The position numbers and the translations under genes were made by a program. Positions 13,480 to 64,000 of a stretch of DNA of 64,000 nucleotides are shown here, piece by piece. Below the pieces are notes generated by a model, which had not been told where the DNA came from, made no database searches, and was given only the letters and a program-made list of their open reading frames with translations. The DNA is from Burkholderia contaminans (lineage in GTDB: Bacteria; Pseudomonadota; Gammaproteobacteria; Burkholderiales; Burkholderiaceae): assembly GCF_029633825.1 (NCBI RefSeq), contig NZ_CP090644.1, forward strand, positions 1 to 64,000, given 5' to 3'. Position 1 is the first letter of the stretch, and each line of letters starts with the position of its first letter.

Positions 13480-16819
<3,340 letters not shown>

Positions 16820-54336: not shown

Positions 54337-54548
54337 TCAGCCGAGCCTGGATCCGGTGGCAAGGTGCCGCGCGGGCGGCCGGCCGTACGATCGACCCTCC
54401 CGCATCCGCTCAAGTCGCTCGAGCGCCTCGACGAACACCGCCAGCGGCTCGCGCCCAACTGGTCCCCGTGCCACGTGATCAGCGCGGCGACGACCTCGTC
54501 TGCTCGATCCTCAATGGACCTTGGTCGTCTTACTGAAGGCGCGGGCAA
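54337..54548 (-). pseudogene. Possible frameshifted small backbone gene
   Basis: One reverse frame reads RSIEDRADEVVAALITWHGD. A shifted frame continues VGREPLAVFVEALERLERMR and EGRSYGRPPARHL, with a stop at 54337. Together they look like one amphipathic-helical protein. It would be the third gene in the minus-strand run from 55148. Weak evidence. Confidence 0.3.
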
Positions 54549-54687
54549 GCCGCGCGATCCAGCGTCGCCATCCCGGCAAATGCGCGATCTGAGCTTCTGC
54601 CCGGCGTGTCGGGATTCGCGTGCGCCCGCTGTCTTTGACGATACGGTGTGGACGCATGGGTCGAATTCTCGCGTGGAACGTGTTCAT
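54511..54687 (-). CDS. Small basic protein, coupled to upstream gene
   Basis: 58 residues starting MNTFHARIRPMRPHRIVKDS, rich in Arg/Lys. Its ATG overlaps the stop of the gene at 54684-55148 (ATGA), suggesting translational coupling. No family is recognised. Confidence 0.55.
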   Translation of the reverse strand: MNTFHARIRPMRPHRIVKDSGRTRIPTRRAEAQIAHLPGWRRWIARLARAFSKTTKVH

Positions 54688-55148
54688 TGTTCGGCCAGCT
54701 GCTCGAGCTCGTCGCATTCGCCGAAGAAATCTTGCTGTCCGGGAAGCGGCGCCGGCGGCCGGCGCACAGCGCGCGGCCGCGGATGGCCGGAACGCTTCAG
54801 TGTACGCGCGATCGCCTGCAGCTGCGCCCAGACACGGTCTGCCTCGGCGGCCGACATGGTGTCGGCCGCGACTTCGAGTGCACCGACGAGCGATTCCAGT
54901 TGCGCAGGCGCCGAGGCCAGCATCGCACGCGCCTCCGTGCGCGCCTGGCCTTCCCGGTAGACCGAGAGCCAGCGTGCGAGCCCTTCGCGTTCGTCGGGAG
55001 TTAGTGCCGCGAGCAGCTCGGGCGGTATCGGCTCGTCGGCGCGAAACGTGCCGAGCACATGTTCGCGCCGACGTCCCCTTGCACGCGGTTGCTTGGGAGG
55101 CTCGACGCGCAGCACCTTGATGAGGTTTCCCTGTTCTCGAATGAGCAT
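54684..55148 (-). CDS. Backbone protein of unknown function
   Basis: 154 residues: MLIREQGNLIKVLRVEPPKQ, a basic patch RARGRRREHVLGTF, a helical middle EPIPPELLAALTPDEREGLA to AADTMSAAEADRVWAQLQAI, and a Pro-rich tail ending GQQDFFGECDELEQLAEQ. I recall similar proteins from Burkholderia integrative elements but no assigned function. It is divergent from the DUF932 gene. Confidence 0.65.
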   Translation of the reverse strand: MLIREQGNLIKVLRVEPPKQPRARGRRREHVLGTFRADEPIPPELLAALTPDEREGLARWLSVYREGQARTEARAMLASAPAQLESLVGALEVAADTMSAAEADRVWAQLQAIARTLKRSGHPRPRAVRRPPAPLPGQQDFFGECDELEQLAEQ

Positions 55149-55305
55149 CGACTCGTCTTAGATTTCACACGATCACGCCGAAGGATAGCGCAACCGCGTG
55201 TCGCGAACGACCGCGACACGCGGCACACACCTCACCAGTCTTGCGGCCGCGGCCGCAAGACGGGGCGCTCGCCGCGCGGCGAGCCGGTGCCGTCTCAACT
55301 ATCCG

Positions 55306-55514
55306 CATTCCGCCAGTCCCCTGAGCTCGCCGTCCCAAACGCGACCGTAGCCCACCGTCGTTCGCATTCAAGGGTCCGCTCCGCCGGCCGCAGCACCCGT
55401 TCGGTGCTCGCCCTTCGGGCTGCGCTCCGCGTGCGGCTTTGCGACCGCCCTTGAACACGCCCGCCGGCAGGCTCCTTCAGTCGCGGGACGACGAACTCAG
55501 GGGACTGGCGGCAG
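55306..55514. repeat. Long palindromic leader element A
   Basis: Outer arms CCGCCAGTCCCCTGAG (55310-55325) and CTCAGGGGACTGGCGG (55496-55511) are perfect over 16 bp, and imperfect pairing extends about 20 bp inward (TCG-CGTCCC-CGAC). A nested pair TTCAAGGG/CCCTTGAA and inner hairpins AGCACCCGTTCGGTGCT and GCCCTTCGGGC lie inside. The core CACCCGTTCGGTGCTCG recurs in element C (63786-63802). It is non-coding. Confidence 0.75.
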
Positions 55515-55621
55515 CAGTTCTGCCGAAGTCCAGGCAGCACCGGCACAACCCCTACGTGGGGACTCGGAATCTTGGGTCCCGGTCGGCCTGAAGAGCAAAC
55601 CAACCGCAGATGGAGGTCACG

Positions 55622-55753
55622 ATGGAAACGAACCGATTGCACCATTGGATAGGAGTCCTGCACTGTGCGTACATGGAATACACGTACACGCCCTGGGATG
55701 GACGGAACTACTACCGGCGCACCGTCGCTTACGACCACGTCGTCTGGTGTTGA
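55622..55753 (+). CDS. 43-residue open frame before the DUF932 gene
   Basis: ATG after TGGAGGTCACG encodes METNRLHHWIGVLHCAYMEY and YTPWDGRNYYRRTVAYDHVV with a stop at 55753. It is rich in aromatic residues and sits 60 bases ahead of DUF932. Ribosome site and position support translation; function unknown, and it could be a leader peptide. Confidence 0.45.
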   Translation: METNRLHHWIGVLHCAYMEYTYTPWDGRNYYRRTVAYDHVVWC

Positions 55754-55813
55754 CGGACGCCAGCGAATTCCTGAACGACTCGCATCGAACCTGAATCTTC
55801 ACTGGAGAAAACC

Positions 55814-56641
55814 ATGCAACTCGCAACCAAGTTTGGCAGTAACGCCCCGATCCTTCGCTCGAACACGCCGCTCTCCGATGACCAGATTCGTGAGGTCGCG
55901 CCGTCGATTTTCGCCGGGGACAAGCACGACTCACGGTCGGACCGATACACGTACATTCCGACCATCGAGATCCTCACGAAGCTTCGCGCAGAAGGGTTCC
56001 AGCCCTTCATGGTTTGTCAGACCCGCGTGCGCGTCGCCGCGAAGCGCGAGCATACGAAGCACATGCTCCGACTGCGGCACGCGTCGCAGGTCGCGTCGCC
56101 GGAAACCCCGGAAATCATCCTCCTCAACAGCCACGATGGGTCGAGCAGCTACCAGATGCTGGCCGGTTACTTCCGGTTCGTCTGCCAGAACGGTCTCGTA
56201 TTCGGCGACACGACGCACGACATCCGGGTGCCGCACAAAGGCGACGTCGTCGACCACGTCGTCGACGGCGCGCACGAGGTGCTCGACGGGTTCGACCTGA
56301 TCCGCGAATGCAAGAGCGAGATGGAAGCCGCGCAGCTTGATGAAGGCGAGCAACAGGCGTTCGCGCGGTCGGTGCTGGCTCTCCGGTACGACGTGACCGA
56401 AGCGCCCGCGCCGATCACCGAGGATCAGCTGCTTCGCGCGCGTCGTACCGAAGACAACCGCCCCGACCTCTGGACCACGTTCCAGCGCGTGCAGGAGAAC
56501 GTGATCAAGGGCGGGGTGCGTGGTCGCTCGGCCACCGGCCGTCGGATGTCGACACGCGGTGTGACCGGTATCGATCAGGATCTCCGCCTGAATCGCGCCA
56601 TGTGGGTGCTCGCCGAAGAGATGCGCAAGTTGAAGGGCTAA
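55814..56641 (+). CDS. DUF932 (YfjQ-like) plasmid/integrative-element protein
   Basis: 275 residues: IREVAPSIFAGDKHDSRSDR, YIPTIEILTKLRAEGFQPF, and RHASQVASPETPEIILLNSH with DGSSSYQMLAGYFRFVCQNG are the DUF932 hallmarks. Members are widespread on plasmids, phages and integrative elements; the exact role is unknown, although links to conjugation have been proposed. It follows the palindromic element A. Confidence 0.88.
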   Translation: MQLATKFGSNAPILRSNTPLSDDQIREVAPSIFAGDKHDSRSDRYTYIPTIEILTKLRAEGFQPFMVCQTRVRVAAKREHTKHMLRLRHASQVASPETPEIILLNSHDGSSSYQMLAGYFRFVCQNGLVFGDTTHDIRVPHKGDVVDHVVDGAHEVLDGFDLIRECKSEMEAAQLDEGEQQAFARSVLALRYDVTEAPAPITEDQLLRARRTEDNRPDLWTTFQRVQENVIKGGVRGRSATGRRMSTRGVTGIDQDLRLNRAMWVLAEEMRKLKG

Positions 56642-56648
56642 CCCGAAC

Positions 56649-56671
56649 GCGCCGGCGGCCGCCGCCGGCGC
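56649..56671. repeat. GC hairpin after DUF932 gene
   Basis: GCGCCGGCG-GCCGC-CGCCGGCGC, a perfect nine-base stem eight bases past the stop codon. Confidence 0.6.
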
Positions 56672-56714
56672 CCTCGCCTCACGTTGTCCCGTACACCATC
56701 ATTCGAGGTTCAAC

Positions 56715-57380
56715 ATGTTCCATCACATTGCAGATCGCCGTACCCAAATCTCCGAGTCCGTCCGCGCGCGGGGCAGCCGGGATTCCGCAACCGCGCCCGC
56801 GGTGCTGGCCGACGTGCTGACGCTTGTCGAGACCGCGCAGTTGGTGCAGACCGTGTTGCGTGAAGGTTTCCCCGCGACGTCGTTCGCAGTGCGCGTCGCA
56901 AAGAACGAACGCGGCACGCAGCTGACCATCGACTGGACCGATGGCCCGCGAGACGTCCAGGTCGCGCGCCTTGTGATGCCGCTGCAGGCCACCCGTCTGG
57001 CCGACGGCGGCAGGCTCGAGCGGGTCGAACACTTCATGTTGACGTCCAGCGGCCGGCGGACGGTCCGCCTCGCCGCAGATCGGATCGCGCTGTCGCGACA
57101 ATTCAGCGATCGCGCGGTTGAGCGTGTGCTCACGCGGCTCGCGTCGCGCTACGGCGATCGGCTGGCGCCGGACGTGCGCGCCTCGATGACGGTCGACGGA
57201 TATCGCGCGGGCGACCTGCAGCTGCTCGAGGTGATCGGCGTGCATCGGGCGGGCAGCGTTCGCTCGGGATCTAACGTGCAGATGGACGTCGCCGCAATGC
57301 TTGCCGAGACGTCCGACGTGCATGGCTTTCCCCGTTCGGCCACGGCCGCGCGTCTATTCGTGCGCCGCGATGTCCACTGA
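56715..57380 (+). CDS. LPD29-like backbone protein
   Basis: 221 residues. The middle, VETAQLVQTVLREGFPATSF to VRVAKNERGTQLTIDWTDGP, fits the LPD29 domain pattern (Large polyvalent-protein-associated; FP-x-F-x-V-R and WTDGP). The C-terminal part (DGYRAGDLQLLEVIGVHRAG) may contact nucleic acid or protein. Such domains are common in conjugative element cargo. Assigned from motif memory. Confidence 0.6.
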   Translation: MFHHIADRRTQISESVRARGSRDSATAPAVLADVLTLVETAQLVQTVLREGFPATSFAVRVAKNERGTQLTIDWTDGPRDVQVARLVMPLQATRLADGGRLERVEHFMLTSSGRRTVRLAADRIALSRQFSDRAVERVLTRLASRYGDRLAPDVRASMTVDGYRAGDLQLLEVIGVHRAGSVRSGSNVQMDVAAMLAETSDVHGFPRSATAARLFVRRDVH

Positions 57381-57403
57381 CCGGAGTGACCAAGGAGCGA
57401 AAC

Positions 57404-57685
57404 ATGACAGCGATCGAAACTGCAGCAATTGAAGCGGCCCGCGCGTATGGCCTTCAGCTGCGCACCGTACCGGATTGGAACGACGAGGACGGGAGCGAGT
57501 GGGCTCGTGCGCGCAAGGCTGGCCGCGAGCAGCTCCTGACGGCCTTGGCCGCCCTGAGCGACGCAGATGCATTGCACGTCATTCTGGAGAACCCTGGCAT
57601 CGAGCCAGACGGCGAGACCCCGTTCGAGCTCATGAAAGTTTACGAGGTGCAGGCGTGGCGGGAGCGTCCCGACAGTTCCCGATGA
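57404..57685 (+). CDS. Small acidic backbone protein
   Basis: 93 residues, ATG after AAGGAGCGAAAC. Helical and acidic: AIEAARAYGLQLRTVPDWND, EWARARKAGREQLLTALAAL, ending AWRERPDSSR. No family is recognised. It follows the LPD29-like gene by 23 bases and is probably co-transcribed. Confidence 0.65.
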   Translation: MTAIETAAIEAARAYGLQLRTVPDWNDEDGSEWARARKAGREQLLTALAALSDADALHVILENPGIEPDGETPFELMKVYEVQAWRERPDSSR

Positions 57686-57796
57686 GCTGACGCCGATCGT
57701 CGCGCACATGGTGATGATGGATGGTGCGCGATCTCACATTTTGCGGGCAGCCAGCCGCCGTGGTTCGGCTGCCTCGAGCACGACCAGGACGACCCA

Positions 57797-58258
57797 ATGA
57801 ATCAACTTTTCCTGAAGATGCCCAATCTGCATCGCGTCATCGACCGTGCGCACGCCGATCTGATTGCGCGCGGCGCGGCGATCGCCGCTGAATGTGGTCT
57901 AGCGCCTTGCGGGCCAGCGGGCTGGTCCAACGGCCTGCGCGACGCCGATCGTATCGCTCTGGTCGTATACCAGCCGAGGCACGGCGGCGGAGAACGGTAT
58001 GGCGTGACACGATTCTTTGACGGCCAGTACGCGTCGGCCGACTGCGTGCTGCCCGAGCATGCCACGCGTGCCCTTTTGGCCGCTACGCGTGCAGAATTCG
58101 AGCGCATCTGTGCGGCCGACGCCACGCGACGTGCGGACATTCGGCTCGACGCGAGCGTTGAAGACCCGGATGGTGCATCGATCGAGCTGCTCGCGAGCGA
58201 CGTCGACGTGCAGCGTCGAGATGTGCGCCTCGAGGCGCAGCAACTGGCGCTGTTCTGA
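57797..58258 (+). CDS. Backbone protein of unknown function
   Basis: 153 residues: MNQLFLKMPNLHRVIDRAHA, ALVVYQPRHGGGERYGVTRF, HATRALLAATRAEFERICAA, ending RRDVRLEAQQLALF. No family is recognised. Two small hairpins (GTGCGCGATC pairing and GGCAGCC/GGCTGCC) lie in the 110-base gap before it. Confidence 0.65.
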   Translation: MNQLFLKMPNLHRVIDRAHADLIARGAAIAAECGLAPCGPAGWSNGLRDADRIALVVYQPRHGGGERYGVTRFFDGQYASADCVLPEHATRALLAATRAEFERICAADATRRADIRLDASVEDPDGASIELLASDVDVQRRDVRLEAQQLALF

Positions 58259-58718
58259 CGCTGCCGTACCTTAACCTGCTCGGCCGTCGTACGGGCAAGT
58301 TTGCGCGGCGGCCGCTCTCGCGGCCGCGCTGACGGAATCGCGATCGCGCCGCGCGATCGGAGATCGCCGCGGCGCTCATGACCGGGACGCAGCACCGTCG
58401 GTCCGCTACGTCCTGCAGGTCCATCCCCTTCCGTCGGCATTCCACAGCCGTCGACCTTTCAACCCGGAGCCCACGTTCGCCCGCCGTGTCCTGGCGGACG
58501 GACCGCTGCGCCGTGCGCGACGAATGTCGCACGGCGCCCCGCTCCTGCAAGGGGCTTTCGCGGCATATCCTCGCGCGCTTCGCGCACTCCGGTATTCCAC
58601 GGTCCCCTTGCCCGCCATTCCCCTGCGGGCGCTCGCCAGCTCCGGGTAGCACGGTTTGCGAGCCAGATCGTTCTGGCTGTGCTCCGGCTGCCCCTATCTC
58701 AACTCTATGGAGCTGACC
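58259..58718. other. Structured non-coding region before the methyltransferase gene
   Basis: No supported gene. Hairpins: GCGGCCGC-tctc-GCGGCCGC (58308-58327), GCGCCGTGCG pairing with CGCACGGCGC around GAAT (58508-58537), and AGCCAG-atcgtt-CTGGCT nested in AGCAC/GTGCT (58648-58683) just ahead of the methyltransferase. Confidence 0.6.
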
Positions 58719-59372
58719 GTGAGCTATTTGTACAACGGCGACTGCCTGGTCGCCATGCCCAAACTCGCCCCCGAATCCGTCGACTGTATCGTGACGGACC
58801 CGCCTTACCTCGTGAATTTCCGCGATCGGAGCGGTCGCTCGATCGCGAACGACGTGAACGGCGACTGGCTGGCGCCGGCGTTCGCCGAAATGTTCCGCGT
58901 CCTGAAACGCGATGCCGTGTGCATTTCGTTCTACGGCTGGAACAAGGTCGACCTGTTTTTCGACGCCTGGAAGGCCGCCGGCTTTCGCGTGGCCGGCCAC
59001 TTCGTCTTCACGAAATCCTACGCGTCCAAGGCCGGCCTGGTGAAGTACCAACACGAATCCGCCTACCTGCTCGCCAAGGGGCGGCCCGTGGCGCCGGCGG
59101 CGCCGATCGCCGACGTCATGCCGTTTCCGTACAGCGGCAATCGCCACCATCCGACCGAAAAGCCGGTCGCCGCGCTGCGCACACTCATTTCCGCTTTTAC
59201 GCAGCCCGGCGACGTCGTACTGGATCCGTTCGCCGGCTCCGGCTCGACGTGCGTTGCCGCCCGCGAGCTCGGGCGCCGGTATATCGGCATCGAACTGGAC
59301 GCGACCTACTTTGCGGCCGCCAAGGCGCGCCTGACGGCGCCCGTCGCCGGCGCCGCGTTGGCCGCCGCCTAA
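58719..59372 (+). CDS. Orphan beta-class DNA methyltransferase (N4-cytosine/N6-adenine)
   Basis: 217 residues from a GTG at 58719 with TGGAG six bases before; an ATG 12 bases upstream lacks a site. Motif IV DPPYLVNF is near the N-terminus and motif I DPFAGSGSTCVAARELGR near the C-terminus, the beta-class order, with HPTEKPVAALRTL between them. No restriction enzyme gene is adjacent. It may protect the element against host restriction or mark its replication. Confidence 0.9.
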   Translation: MSYLYNGDCLVAMPKLAPESVDCIVTDPPYLVNFRDRSGRSIANDVNGDWLAPAFAEMFRVLKRDAVCISFYGWNKVDLFFDAWKAAGFRVAGHFVFTKSYASKAGLVKYQHESAYLLAKGRPVAPAAPIADVMPFPYSGNRHHPTEKPVAALRTLISAFTQPGDVVLDPFAGSGSTCVAARELGRRYIGIELDATYFAAAKARLTAPVAGAALAAA

Positions 59373-59395
59373 GACCCGAACAGAGGACATTCATC

Positions 59396-59902
59396 ATGCA
59401 ACTGATCGTTTCAGCCTATTCCGGTCTCGAGCAGCTCGACCATCCCCGCACGAACGAAAACGGCGACCCTGTCGACGTGTTTTGCGTCCGCCTCGACGCC
59501 GCGGCGCGGTTCCCGCACCGCGCCAGCGACCTGGACATGGCGCGTATCTACCGCTACCGGAATTCGTTCGAGTTCAGCGCCGGCACCTACGTCATGCACG
59601 ACATCTTCCGCGAGCGCCTGGCCGAGCTCGCCGATTACCCGGCGATCTCGATCGGCGCCGCGCGGATCTGCCATACGAACGGCGCCATCGCGGCAAAGGA
59701 CGGCCCGTTCAAGGAACTGATCGATTTCTCGATCACGTCGGGAACGATCGGCACTCGGACTTCCGCAAAGCTGGCCGACGATTTCAGTCAGTTCCTTGGG
59801 GCAATCGACGCCGATTGCGATCACCTGTTCGCCGAACTGTACCGAAATTGGTATTTCGCCTTCTGCCTGGCCGAGAACTGCGGCGCTGTGCAGCTTTCTT
59901 GA
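59396..59902 (+). CDS. Backbone protein of unknown function
   Basis: 168 residues from the ATG at 59396 (AGAGGACA upstream). Reads MQLIVSAYSGLEQLDHPRTN, VDVFCVRLDAAARFPHRASD, ELIDFSITSGTIGTRTSAKL and ends with aromatic residues (ELYRNWYFAFCLAENCGAVQ). No family is recognised. Confidence 0.65.
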   Translation: MQLIVSAYSGLEQLDHPRTNENGDPVDVFCVRLDAAARFPHRASDLDMARIYRYRNSFEFSAGTYVMHDIFRERLAELADYPAISIGAARICHTNGAIAAKDGPFKELIDFSITSGTIGTRTSAKLADDFSQFLGAIDADCDHLFAELYRNWYFAFCLAENCGAVQLS

Positions 59903-59910
59903 CCACACGA

Positions 59911-59937
59911 GCGCCGGCCGCGCGCTGCGGCCGGCGC
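59911..59937. repeat. GC hairpin between backbone genes
   Basis: GCGCCGGCCGC-gcgct-GCGGCCGGCGC: a perfect 11-base stem immediately after the stop at 59902, with no T-run. Confidence 0.7.
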
Positions 59938-59951
59938 AACTGGAGAACAGC

Positions 59952-60119
59952 ATGCCCCGATATTTGATTGATGCAATTTTGGCCGCGATCGCTGCAAACG
60001 CCTTCGGTCCCGAGATCTCGGACGTATGGGATTCCGATACGGAAATCGAAGTCCTGCCGACGTCGTTGCGTTACGCGATGCTGGAAGCGTTCCAGGCCGG
60101 CCAGTGCGCGCGGCGATAA
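59952..60119 (+). CDS. Small backbone protein
   Basis: 55 residues, ATG after CTGGAGAACAGC: MPRYLIDAILAAIAANAFGP, DSDTEIEVLPTSLRYAMLEA, ending GQCARR. Acidic middle. No family is recognised. Confidence 0.55.
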   Translation: MPRYLIDAILAAIAANAFGPEISDVWDSDTEIEVLPTSLRYAMLEAFQAGQCARR

Positions 60120-60128
60120 ATCCACTCG

Positions 60129-60154
60129 CCGGCCCCGGCTTTGCCCGGGGCCGG
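60129..60154. terminator. Hairpin before the DUF6900-like gene
   Basis: CCGGCCCCGG-ctttgc-CCGGGGCCGG, a perfect ten-base stem, followed by CCTTTCC. It could be a terminator or a processing hairpin between the two small genes. Confidence 0.5.
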
Positions 60155-60171
60155 CCTTTCCAGAGAAACCC

Positions 60172-60360
60172 ATGAACAAAGGCGAATTCGAAATGTTGCT
60201 GTTTGCGATCGCGCGTATCCATCTGAACATCGACACGCTTGAAACGCGTTACAGCGACCGGCTGGATTTCCACGATTGTGCCGTCTGGTGTATCCGTGCC
60301 GCATTGACCGCGGCGTACGACGCTGGCGTTATTGACGGGCGCCGAAACGCTTCGAAGTGA
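60172..60360 (+). CDS. DUF6900-like small protein
   Basis: 62 residues from the ATG at 60172: GEFEMLLFAIARIHLNIDTL, ETRYSDRLDFHDCAVWCIR, then ALTAAYDAGVIDG. The LETR-xSD-LDFHD core fits DUF6900 as I recall it. Function unknown; common on mobile elements. Confidence 0.6.
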   Translation: MNKGEFEMLLFAIARIHLNIDTLETRYSDRLDFHDCAVWCIRAALTAAYDAGVIDGRRNASK

Positions 60361-60843
60361 CTCGCGGCGGCCGGCGCGCGCCTGGCGCCGGCGGTGTTCG
60401 CCGCTCGACCATGTTCCACCGCCGGCGTGGGCCCGCGGGCCCGGCCGGCGCCTGGAACGCGGAAAGCCGATTCCGTACCGCGAGATGTTCCACTGATCCG
60501 GGGCGGCCCACCCCGCCCGCATCGAGCGGCCGGCGCGGGCGGGGACTGCTCGCCCCAGCTGGCCGCGGTGGATCTTCACCGTTCCCAATATCCAGCCGGC
60601 GCGCGGCACCTTGCGCGCCCGGCTGCGCCAGCACGCAAGCCGCAGGCACCCGCGCGCCAGAGAAACGGGCTGTCCGCTCACGGGGCTCGGCCGCCACCGG
60701 CGTCCGGCCCCGGCGCTGGCCGCCCGTCAGCCACGCGGCGAGCCGCGCGGAGTTCGCGCTCGGGCCGCGCGTGCGGCTCCGCGCCGGCGATGTCCGGGTC
60801 TCGGCAGCCGTCCCCGCGTTCCAGCCTCTCCCGTCGGCGCATC
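60361..60843. other. GC-rich region with no supported gene
   Basis: Both strands have long open frames simply because the DNA is very GC-rich; none has a good start or a recognisable domain. The following element B begins at 60844. Confidence 0.45.
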
Positions 60844-61028
60844 AGCTGCCATCGGGCCGCCTCATCCCGACGCATAGTGCGGCCCGCCGTCACCGCAAGG
60901 GTTCGCGTTGCCGCGCGCGGCGCCCGGTCGCCGGGCCTGGCGGCCGCGGCGCTGCGGCCTTGCTCGCGCCCTTGCAGTGCCTGCGCGTCCGCACTCCCCA
61001 TGCGTCGAGGCGGCTCCGAATGGCAGCT
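60844..61028. repeat. Long palindromic leader element B, upstream of parB-like gene
   Basis: Left arm starts AGCTGCCATCGGGCCGCC, right arm ends GGCGGCTCCGAATGGCAGCT; inner pairings GACGCAT/ATGCGTC, TGCGG/CCGCA and GCAAGGG/CCCTTGC follow in order. A hairpin CGCCCGG/CCGGGC lies in the centre. It ends 29 bases before the ParB-like start. It is close in sequence to element C. Confidence 0.75.
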
Positions 61029-61057
61029 TTTTCCACCCCGACGTAAAGGAGGCTTTT

Positions 61058-63187
61058 ATGAACGCAGTGACCACCGAGATCCCGGCCCTCGCCCACGATG
61101 CGGGCGTTCCCCCCGCACCCCCCGAGGCTCACCGAACGGCAGACGAGCTGCGCGACATTCCGCTTAAACGGCTCGTCGCGTCCCCCTACAACGTGCGGCG
61201 CGTGCCGCCCACCGGCATCAAGGAACTCGCCCTCAATATCTGGAAAGTCGGTCTGCTCCAGAACCTGATCGTCCATCCAATGAAGGTCGGCGCGCGGAGG
61301 GCGCAGACGTTCGGCGCGGCCGCTGGCGAACGCCGCCGCCTCGCGCTCATCTACCTGTTCGAACACGACTACATCCCCGCCGACCACCCGGTGCGCTGCC
61401 GGGTCGTGCCGGTCGAGGACGCAGTGCTGCTGTCGGCAACCGAGAACGAAATGCGCGAGCCGATGCACCCGGCCGACGCATGCGACGCTTACCGGATTCT
61501 GGTCGAATCCGGTCGATCGATCGAGGAAATCGCGGACCTGTACGGCGTGCATCCGAAAACTGTGCAGCGCCGCCTCAAGCTCGCACGCGTCTCTCCGAAG
61601 CTGGTCGACCTGTTCCGCACCGGTGAAATCAAGCTCGATCAAATGCAGGCGCTCGCGCTGTCGGACAGTCACGACGAGCAAGAGGCCGCGTGGTTCGACG
61701 CCGAGCCGTACAACCGCGACGCGCACGCGATCCGCCGCCGCTTCGTGCGCGACGAACAGTCGTTCGTGAGCAACCGCGTCGCGAAATTCGTAGGCGTCGA
61801 GGCGTTCGAAGCGGCTGGCGGTGCCGTGCGACGCGACCTGTTCTCCGCAGCCGAGGATGCGTGGTATCGCGATCATGCGCTGATGCTGCGCCTCGCGACC
61901 GAGCAACTGGAAGCGCTCGGCGCGTCGGTGCTGGCCGAAGGCTGGGCGTGGGTGAAAGCCATGCCGGAACGCGACCATGCCACCCGGTCGCAGTTCCGCC
62001 CGGTGCTGCCGCGTCGAACGGAACCCACCGATGAGGTGGAGAAAGAACTGACAGCGATCGATCAGCGGCTGGCCGAACTCGCCCAATTTTGGGATGCCGA
62101 CGAGAGAGACGACGAAGTCGCCGAGCGCGTCGAGGCGGAAGAAGAAGCGTTGACCGTGCGTCGTGACGAAATCGAAGAGTCCCTGCTCGTCTACCATCCC
62201 GACGACATGGCGCAGGCTGGGGCGCTTCTCTCGCTCGATGCTGACGGCGAGCCCGTGATCGAGCGCGGACTCGTTACGCGTGAGCCGGTTGCAGCCGCGA
62301 CGACCGAAAGTGGCGAGAATGGTGACGACGATGACGACGACTCGTCAGATGGTCAGCCCGCGCGCGTCGCCGTGTCGGCTGTGAAGCCCGTGAAGGGGCC
62401 GCACTCCGAACGGCTGGCGCTGCGTCTGAACGCGCATCGCACGGCGGCCGTTGCCGCCGCCCTCGCGCAGCAGCCGCACGTCGCGCTCGCCGCGCTCGTG
62501 CACCGGCTGCTGGCGGGCGAGTACGGCCACAGTACCGAAGGCAGCGCGCTGGACGTGACGTTCCGCGACCACTCCCACACCCTGACGAAGCATGCGCCGG
62601 AACTGGACGACGACCTTGCGTTCACCATGCGCCGAGAGCAACGCCGGGTTTGGGGAGGCGTAATCCCCCACGACAGCGACGCGCTGCTGCGCTGGCTGAT
62701 CGAGCAGACCGACGAGCGCCTGCAGCTGATCCTCGCGCAGTACGTCGCGGCGAGCGTGGACAGCGTGCGCCCGGACGAGCGGCCGCACGCGATCAACGCG
62801 CTGATCCCGGCGCTCGGGCTGAATCTCGCGGATGCGTGGCAACCGACGAAGGCGGGATATTTCGACCATGTTTCGAAGGATCGGATCGTGGACGTCGTGA
62901 GCGCGGCCGTGTCGCCTTCCGATGCGATGCGCGTGGCGAAGCTCAAGAAGGGGGACGCGGCGACAGAGGCCGAACGGCTGATCGGGGGGCGCGGCTGGTT
63001 GCCTGAGCATTTCGCGAAGGCCGAAGTCGTGCGGGTGAAGCTGTGGGACGTTCCGGCGAAGGCGTCGGATGCCGAGGCGAGCGCTGAGGAAGCGGAGCCC
63101 GACGCCCGTGCTCTGGCCGTGTCGGCCGACGACGTGCGCGACGATGCCGCTGTAGCGGAAGGCAAAGGCATGCCGCCGCGAGATTGA
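61058..63187 (+). CDS. Large ParB/RepB/Spo0J-family protein
   Basis: 709 residues from the ATG at 61058, preceded by AAAGGAGGC; the frame is open upstream but that part is the palindrome. The N-terminal ParB nuclease-like domain has DIPLKRLVASPYNVRR, LQNLIVHP, AGERRRLAL and ENEMREPMHPADACDAY. The helix-turn-helix SIEEIADLYGVHPKTVQRRL follows. The long C-terminus has an acidic run (GENGDDDDDDSSDG, about 418-431). It is much longer than chromosomal ParB, typical of plasmid or integrative-element versions. No ParA is adjacent in the window. Confidence 0.85.
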   Translation: MNAVTTEIPALAHDAGVPPAPPEAHRTADELRDIPLKRLVASPYNVRRVPPTGIKELALNIWKVGLLQNLIVHPMKVGARRAQTFGAAAGERRRLALIYLFEHDYIPADHPVRCRVVPVEDAVLLSATENEMREPMHPADACDAYRILVESGRSIEEIADLYGVHPKTVQRRLKLARVSPKLVDLFRTGEIKLDQMQALALSDSHDEQEAAWFDAEPYNRDAHAIRRRFVRDEQSFVSNRVAKFVGVEAFEAAGGAVRRDLFSAAEDAWYRDHALMLRLATEQLEALGASVLAEGWAWVKAMPERDHATRSQFRPVLPRRTEPTDEVEKELTAIDQRLAELAQFWDADERDDEVAERVEAEEEALTVRRDEIEESLLVYHPDDMAQAGALLSLDADGEPVIERGLVTREPVAAATTESGENGDDDDDDSSDGQPARVAVSAVKPVKGPHSERLALRLNAHRTAAVAAALAQQPHVALAALVHRLLAGEYGHSTEGSALDVTFRDHSHTLTKHAPELDDDLAFTMRREQRRVWGGVIPHDSDALLRWLIEQTDERLQLILAQYVAASVDSVRPDERPHAINALIPALGLNLADAWQPTKAGYFDHVSKDRIVDVVSAAVSPSDAMRVAKLKKGDAATEAERLIGGRGWLPEHFAKAEVVRVKLWDVPAKASDAEASAEEAEPDARALAVSADDVRDDAAVAEGKGMPPRD

Positions 63188-63196
63188 CCGGATCGA

Positions 63197-63225
63197 CGCC
63201 AGCGGGTGCGTTACGCCCGCTGGCG
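63197..63225 (+). terminator. Hairpin after the parB-like gene
   Basis: CGCCAGCGGG and CCCGCTGGCG form a perfect ten-base stem with a nine-base loop, ten bases beyond the stop codon. No T-run follows. Confidence 0.55.
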
Positions 63226-63671
63226 CAGTGTGCCGGTCAGTGTCCTTCGGCGGGCCGTCCGCAGCATGATGATCTACTCCCGAAAGTTCTCACTTTTCGA
63301 TTCTCTGCCGCTCCCGTAAAGGATCACCTTTCCGATGCTGCGCATGCGCGCCCGTCGCTGTGGCGCATGCGCTGGCGGCACTTTCCTGACTCGCTGCTGG
63401 GGCGTCTCCCTCCGCTTCGCTCCGGGCCGGGCTTTCGCGCTGCGCGTCGAGCCCCGCTGCGCGTGTCTCGCCCCTGACGGGCTTCAATCCCTGACGTCTG
63501 CGCGCCGTGCCGGCGCTGCGCGCTTCGCTTGCTCGTGGAGTACGCGCCCGCTACGCGCGGGCGGACAGCAGGTCTAGCGGCCGGCTACGCCGGCCGAGGG
63601 GGCGCGGGGCCGGCTGCCCCGCGCCGTGTGCGCGATCCGGTCGGGGAAACCGCGTGGTTGCGCTCCATCCT
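63226..63671. other. GC-rich non-coding stretch with small hairpins
   Basis: No gene is supported. Hairpins include GGCCGGC-tac-GCCGGCC near 63581-63597 and GGCGCGGGG/CCCCGCGCC near 63600-63625. It contains CTCCGCTTCGCTCCGGG-type sequence like the centres of the palindromic elements. Confidence 0.45.
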
Positions 63672-63916
63672 TTTGCGCCGGGTTAAGCGCGTGGATCTGC
63701 CATTGGGAGCCGCCCCTTTTCGACGCATAGCGCGGGCGGGCACGGGCGCAAGGGTAAAGCCTGCGCTTCGCTCCGCCCACGTCCTCACCCGTTCGGTGCT
63801 CGGCTACGCCTGCGCTCCGCATGCGGCCTCCGGGCGCGCCCTTGCACCCGTGCCCGCCCGCGCTAAACCCGCGTCGAGGCGGCTCCCAATGGCAGATCCA
63901 CAACCCGACACAAAAG
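63672..63916. repeat. Long palindromic leader element C
   Basis: Arms of 24 bp are perfect: 63691-63714 (starting GTGGATCTGCCATTGGG) and 63878-63901. Pairing extends outward (TTTTGCGCCGGGTT against AACCCGACACAAAA) and inward (CGACGC, CGCGGGCGGGCACGGG, GCAAGGG). The centre has the CACCCGTTCGGTGCTCG core of element A. It ends ten bases before the next gene. Confidence 0.85.
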
Positions 63917-63925
63917 GACGAAATC

Positions 63926-64000
63926 GTGAGCACAACCACCCCCGACCGAATCACGCACACACGCGCGGGCGTTCCCCCCGCACCCCCCGAGGCTCACCGC
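63926..64000 (+). CDS. Second ParB-like gene, first 25 codons (runs off right edge)
   Basis: GTG at 63926 after AAAAGGACG encodes MSTTTPDRITHTRAGVPPAP, then PEAHR, to the window end. The last 35 bases of coding (63965-63999) are identical to 61100-61134 in the preceding ParB-like gene, which reads AGVPPAPPEAHR. It is probably a paralog with the same leader. Confidence 0.6.
   Translation, partial: MSTTTPDRITHTRAGVPPAPPEAHR

Follow-up and report, generated by a model that had tools for sequence, protein, structure and literature searches.

Three long palindromes, A, B and C, each precede a gene in the window (the first 64,000 of the 199,797 bp of contig C5 in a 9.44-Mb Burkholderia contaminans genome; Table 1), which raises the question of what these structures do there. 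A preliminary description had viewed them as a family located upstream of backbone genes, with homologous arms in B and C, a core common to A and C, and a fold conserved beyond exact sequence. Structured RNA leaders, cruciforms bound by a ParB-like protein, single-strand origins and a small mobile palindrome were put forward as possible functions, and no named element was thought to match.

A gapped hairpin scan of the window gave its top scores to C (44), B (34) and A (30, tied with a coding-region repeat at 15968-16184), all above the best hairpins of five shuffled windows (20-24). The bottom-strand DNA folds of A (z -8.59), B (60844-61028; z -7.65) and C (z -13.02) were in each case reached by 0/200 shuffles. 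The arms of A (55310-55336 with 55485-55511) are 93% complementary, while in C the outer arms (63691-63714 with 63878-63901) display 100% and the inner arms (63728-63754 with 63839-63865) 96% complementarity. B and C have arms in common (80% identity over 45 nt and 72% over 47 nt), and A and C share an apical core (82% over 34 nt). BLAST searches of 72,556 plasmid records matched 244 records with C, 108 with B and 229 with A plus its flank, many of the matches of A and C being to the apical core only; elements like A, B and C recur before genes on related plasmids. These data uphold the proposed family and its shared arms and core, and the bounds originally assigned were close, being slightly off for A and C. 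On other plasmids the core common to A and C (CACCCGTTCGGTGCTCG...CTGCGCTCCGC) also turns up lacking the promoter arms, with copies in both orientations on pUSA011-1; such copies are possibly a separate single-strand site or a mobile palindrome. A candidate fourth hairpin at 58430-58700 contains an inserted inner stem-loop and, by eye, has a module in common with C-type elements of pBCJ2315 and B. ubonensis; its -10 box is not clear.

Table 1. Positions of the hairpins, predicted promoter features and genes (window numbering unless contig C5 or another locus is named)
Feature	Position	Strand	Remarks
Element A hairpin	55304-55516	bottom (-), putative transferred strand	folding and mismatch counts
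Element B hairpin	60843-61027; extended fold 60787-61092	bottom (-)	folding and mismatch counts
Element C hairpin	63668-63918	bottom (-)	strongest hairpin of the 64-kb window
Candidate fourth hairpin	58430-58700	(-)	upstream of methyltransferase gene; -85.6 (bottom) versus -73.2 (top) kcal/mol
A non-template arm	55344-55371	(-)	-35 TTGAAT 55366-55371, 16 nt, -10 TACGGT 55344-55349
A template arm	55451-55486	(+)	TTGAAC 55451-55456; TCCTTC at -10 place 55473-55478
A predicted start	about 55484-55486	(+)	predicted from spacing
B non-template arm	60871-60898	(-)	-35 TTGCGG 60893-60898, 16 nt, -10 TATGCG 60871-60876
B template arm	60972-61007	(+)	TTGCAG 60972-60977; TCCCC(A) at -10 place
B predicted start	about 61005-61007	(+)	predicted
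C non-template arm	63724-63751	(-)	-35 TTGCGC 63746-63751, 16 nt, -10 TATGCG 63724-63729
C template arm	63842-63877	(+)	TTGCAC 63842-63847; TAAACC at -10 place 63864-63869
C predicted start	about 63875-63877	(+)	predicted
43-aa ORF	55622-55753	+	first ORF after A; annotated in HI2424 plasmid
DUF932 protein	55814-56641	+	PF06067 E 2e-51; 56% identical to F DUF932 protein
DNA methyltransferase	58719-59372	+	PF01555 E 1.7e-35; 61% identical to F leading-region methylase
ParB-like protein, after B	61058-63187	+	TIGR00180, below its cut-off
Gene after C	63926-64000, past window end	+	start GTG; no Pfam family
Coupling protein	C5 68821-70887	+	right of window
TrwC relaxase	C5 70894-73788	+	~7 kb right of window
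Arm-less apical core copies	L012:876, 2828(-), 13577, 17143(-), 20432, 27809(-)		
Arm-less apical core copies	L013 (four copies); L014:794; L015:35680; L016:40026(-)		

The stretch from 60780 to 64000 is 100% identical to two B. contaminans plasmids and 92-98% identical to other cepacia-complex plasmids, and gave no match in a phage collection. Two related plasmids, pBCJ2315 and that of HI2424, belong to the MOBF and MPF_F types. To the right of the window, a small NikA-like protein is encoded on the + strand in addition to the coupling protein and the TrwC relaxase, and the genes behind A, B and C point toward the relaxase. The order of relaxase and coupling protein, in the plasmid itself and in its relatives, places the three elements in the leading region of a conjugative plasmid. 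The R388 nic sequence has an exact match in R7K, with the same layout, while a search of the Burkholderia plasmids for this motif yielded nothing convincing. A functional oriT of pBCJ2315 was mapped to 65,490-66,438, with ptwABC on one side and the leading genes on the other (PMC4853378). From the position of the relaxase and coupling protein, and by analogy with R388, the bottom strand is expected to be the first to reach the recipient, carrying in the genes behind C, B and A in that order.

The conservation of the fold is evident from covariation, with changes on both sides in 19/42 pairs of the B/C-type elements (12 sequences) and in 20/40 pairs of the A-type (14 sequences). In the B/C alignment 95.4% of cells are paired and 59 are double-change cells, compared with 18.1 in shuffles; 0/500 shuffles reached any of five measures, and in slid controls the double-change cells dropped to 6-11. 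Which strand is kept folded can be read from the arms, as a mutation in one arm produces a G.T mismatch on one strand and an A.C mismatch on the other. On the bottom strand the G.T:A.C ratio is 8:0 in A, 5:0 in B and 6:0 in C (19:0 in total), and the bottom strand has a lower fold energy than the top in A (-80.9 versus -66.2 kcal/mol) and in the extended fold of B (-119.0 versus -101.0 kcal/mol).

The same bias was displayed by 35 chosen elements, which form 18 clusters and were selected with the help of transferred-strand folds. Their predicted transferred strand carries 201 G.T versus 24 A.C mismatches and folds better in 35/35 elements, by a mean of 14.7 kcal/mol (DNA parameters); after shuffle correction the preference is retained in 33/35 and absent in 2/35. 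Left out of this set were the three HI2424 elements (L009), which are near-copies of A, B and C, L012:42357 (a copy of 9218), L001:32489 (-81.7), which overlaps a gene start, and weak rows of the detector described below (dG above -80), except that L013:14203 was kept. The relaxase is in view for 29 of the 35 elements, and each of these is on the same strand as, and upstream of, the relaxase, with the predicted transferred strand as the template of the next gene; the other six comprise one element in F and five with the relaxase outside the view. Only A, B and C, together with the 17 distinct elements found when 84,980 genomes were scanned for a sequence pattern, are free of fold-selection bias. 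The scan pattern included TATGCG and the CCTTG/CAAGG of the -35, leaving the +-strand -10 place free. These 17 elements contain 48 G.T versus 5 A.C mismatches, and the predicted transferred strand folds better in 17/17. Other hairpins of the same plasmids, used as a control, gave 386 G.T versus 364 A.C, compared with 246 versus 83 when the elements were rescored by this cruder control method. The strand-biased mismatches thus indicate that A/B/C-type elements are selected as single-stranded DNA rather than as mRNA leaders or double-stranded dyads.

These data bear directly on two of the functions proposed at the outset. If the elements were structured 5' leaders of mRNAs (riboregulators), made from promoters farther upstream, they would likewise precede genes, and covariation alone is blind to strand; however, the G.T mismatches and the conserved fold are on the strand opposite the mRNA, the mRNA-sense strand folds worse in every element of both sets, and no Rfam family matched the window at the gathering score (weak matches at relaxed thresholds did not overlap A, B or C), making such leaders very improbable. 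The view that the elements are double-stranded operators, cruciforms or attachment sites for the ParB-like or another protein draws on the large dyads adjoining the ParB-like gene. It is just as hard to sustain, as a double-stranded dyad would give no strand bias and the sequence of the paired spacer drifts freely.

On the folded bottom strand the arms rebuild -35 and -10 boxes, which are weak with respect to the consensus; TATGCG matches 3/6 bases of the -10 consensus, without the last T. In individual minimum-energy folds of the B/C-type, TATGCG is paired (f10 1.0), with bulges beside it and no clean open bubble. The B/C alignment shows no variation in the -35 pairs, TATGCGTCG or GAGGCGG, whereas the spacer between the boxes pairs via compensatory changes, as is required of a duplex promoter spacer. 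Both types contain a slipped helix at the -10 box (GCGTCG/CGACGC or GTCGCG/CGCGAC), flanked by a bulge of the template arm and, on the opposite side, by one of the non-template arm. A simple scan of 54500-64000 returned no ordinary sigma-70-like promoter. The C-type hairpins also present TTGCAC-16-TAAACC on the other strand; in the 17 scan elements the +-strand -10 place is never TATGCG. A terminator reading was rejected: five T residues follow the right arm of B only, and the scan listed no terminator at A, B or C.

A fold-based detector of such arms, which caught B where an ungapped version had missed it, returned 58 rows from 22 loci, 47 of them strong (dG below -80 kcal/mol). The strong rows are on the leading-gene strand in 39/47 cases, with a spacer of 16 nt in 38 and 15 nt in one, and the eight in the opposite sense are all within hairpins also detected in the right sense. 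Shuffled loci yielded 4 strong rows in 4.52 Mb, compared with 47 in about 1.55 Mb of real sequence. The element before ardA of ColIb-P9, a positive control, was detected (TTGCAT-15-TAAGAT). Eight of the 22 loci lack a strong row (L002, L003, L013, L014, L015, L016, L028 and L030); R7K is among the loci without one, although both R7K and Denitratisoma carry the apical module. In the 199.8-kb plasmid itself, scanned in pieces that left out a few hundred bases at two junctions, the strong rows correspond to A, B and C, to the mirror of C and to a site at 196,580. The genome encodes a second TrwC relaxase on another contig (C7:54444-55271), and 15001-64000 of this second TrwC plasmid contained two weak rows and no strong element. 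Many TATGCG-type elements can occur on a single replicon, as a 72.7-kb Aquabacterium contig (L046, L047, L051 and L056) gave seven pattern matches, some of which may overlap, all on the + strand as stored. The proposal that the elements are a mobile palindrome (REP/MITE-like) that landed before genes could invoke the several copies per plasmid and the apical module alone on other plasmids. It is the least credible of the readings considered here, since C as a query found only five matches in the genome, all in C, A and B on C5, and the strong rows point in one sense apart from the mirrors.

A, B and C are very probably single-stranded-DNA promoters of the Frpo/ssi type that serve the leading region of a conjugative plasmid of the MOBF class, and the best explanation of their structure is a divergent branch of these promoters in which the helix at the -10 box is slipped. 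In conjugation, transfer of the bottom strand into the recipient would begin at an oriT located rightward of the window, and each element would fold back so that its arms form a duplex on the entering strand. The RNA polymerase holoenzyme of the host could then read this duplex as a promoter whose -35 and -10 boxes are separated by 16 nt, with the 3' arm serving as the non-template and the 5' arm as the template strand. The RNA would start in the right arm and run into the next gene, toward oriT, before the complementary strand is made. In the double-stranded plasmid the hairpin would be gone, leaving the +-strand right arm as a poorer -10 sequence, and expression would be expected to stop. 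The genes concerned look like the first to enter a new cell, switched on while the plasmid is still single-stranded.

The identity of these genes is consistent with such early expression. As the preliminary description had stated, the elements precede backbone genes: A is followed by the 43-aa ORF, which is unannotated in the plasmid itself, and then the DUF932 gene, B by the gene for the ParB-like protein, and C by an ORF starting with GTG, whose counterpart at L019:927-1217 encodes 96 aa. The ParB-like protein and its counterpart in the leading region of F share 32% identity in an alignment of 628 positions. In F a DUF932 gene is located behind Frpo1 and a ParB-like gene in the Frpo2 operon, and deletion of Frpo1 or Frpo2 abolishes early expression of the downstream genes tested (PMC9849209); the DUF932 gene behind Frpo1 is taken, by position, to be ygeB. 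Methyltransferases related to the one encoded in the window are reported to be silent in laboratory growth (PMC7736820). In feature tables inspected by eye, every one of the 35 elements is followed, at a distance of up to about 300 nt, by a gene that starts on the predicted strand, the genes including those for DUF932, DUF3560, ParB-like, antirestriction and unknown proteins. The predicted RNA starts are ~50 nt 5' of the start codons behind B and C, and in 16/17 scan elements the arm is followed, 25-40 nt farther on, by the beginning of a Shine-Dalgarno-like motif with a start codon. This close coupling to start codons argues against the view that the hairpins chiefly prime complementary-strand synthesis, as single-strand initiation sites, with expression of the next gene being secondary. 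Such sites would be on the same strand and in the same place as A, B and C, the apical module does occur without promoter arms and, on some plasmids, in both orientations, and Frpo performs both priming and promoter functions (PMC7736820). Priming as the main role is unlikely, though less so than the other alternatives. Of the functions originally proposed, the single-strand option came closest to the promoter interpretation favoured here, and the other three were unsupported.

The ORFs after B and C have in common a stretch of 35 bases (61100-61134 and 63965-63999) that is identical in sequence and reading frame and encodes AGVPPAPPEAHR. This start segment is in frame in 12 of the 17 scan elements (five being Burkholderia records close to the window), represented by its end only in two, frameshifted in one and absent from two; it opens unrelated early ORFs after TATGCG-type elements, also in other genera. 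A Cupriavidus gilardii plasmid contains four nearly identical TATGCG-type elements (L023:9489, 11404, 14226 and 16042), one directly before an antirestriction gene, and the four ORFs that follow have their own common start peptide, MSTSNTQQTNSALA, which differs from AGVPPAPPEAHR. It is conceivable, if speculative, that conjugative plasmids of Burkholderiales and their relatives contain an uncharted branch of single-stranded-DNA promoters in the form of a portable cassette. This would comprise a hairpin with an interchangeable apical module, a slipped -10 helix that presets the transcription bubble, a Shine-Dalgarno site and a common N-terminal peptide (around AG[V/F]PPAP[P/S]EAHQ) fused to early proteins that are otherwise unrelated. 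The peptide might serve as a mark for the translation, delivery or turnover of these proteins while the plasmid enters the cell.

Frpo/ssi promoters form an established class (PMC9849209, PMC11541004, PMC8744291, PMC7736820, PMC10104558, PMC12826799), although those tested so far are mainly on plasmids of gut bacteria, F and IncI plasmids such as ColIb-P9. Surveys have searched by BLAST from F/IncI sequences and a few candidates (PMC11541004, PMC12826799), an approach that would miss a branch as diverged as this one; the word 'Burkholderia' is absent from the text of both articles, and searches of article texts in an open-access library returned no description of them from Burkholderiales plasmids. 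If the promoter interpretation is correct, early expression from single-stranded DNA would be of ancient origin and common to many plasmids of beta- and gammaproteobacteria. The arms would then provide a sequence-independent search signature, G.T on one strand only, pointing to leading regions and unknown early proteins, and their natural variants could help to work out how RNA polymerase opens the hairpin.

A, B and C were also compared with elements of characterized plasmids. R7K (IncW) contains the A/C apical module before ardC and another leading gene, on the predicted strand, although its -10 is weak (TAGGGC, 15-nt spacer) and farther from the genes than in A, B and C. PardC, Porf7 and Pssb of R388 are double-stranded promoters repressed by ArdK or StbA (PMC3937220). 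IncN plasmids also have repeats before leading-region genes. These CUP repeats were rejected as counterparts: in R46 they are long direct repeats of up to 655 nt with no detector match, their transferred-strand fold is not better, and matches to the elements extend to only 15-23 nt. Frpo1 and Frpo2 of F, like A, B and C, are transferred-strand stem-loops in the leading region with the same gene families downstream, but they are missed by the detector that finds A, B and C, and Frpo2 as a query gave no match in the window at E <= 1. Contrary to the early impression that no named element matches, Frpo/ssi promoters fit in architecture, place and kinds of gene, the sequence similarity being short only; elements of some relatives have 38-54-nt apical matches to F/ColIb elements (best E 9e-8). 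In ColIb-P9 the elements before ardA and before an antirestriction gene, both detected with TTGCAT-15-TAAGAT, are 98% identical to an F element that also precedes an antirestriction gene; this F copy has no G.T excess (0:3), unlike A, B and C. The ColIb-P9 ssi before ardA differs in its spacer (15 versus 16 nt) and in having a 3x3 mismatch at the -10 instead of a slipped helix. As in A, B and C, however, it is a hairpin on the transferred strand facing an early gene, with TTG-N15-TAAGAT on the 3' arm and a transferred strand that folds better (-74.3 versus -63.4), and a 38-nt piece of the A element of pBCJ2315 matches it with 84% identity (E 0.001).
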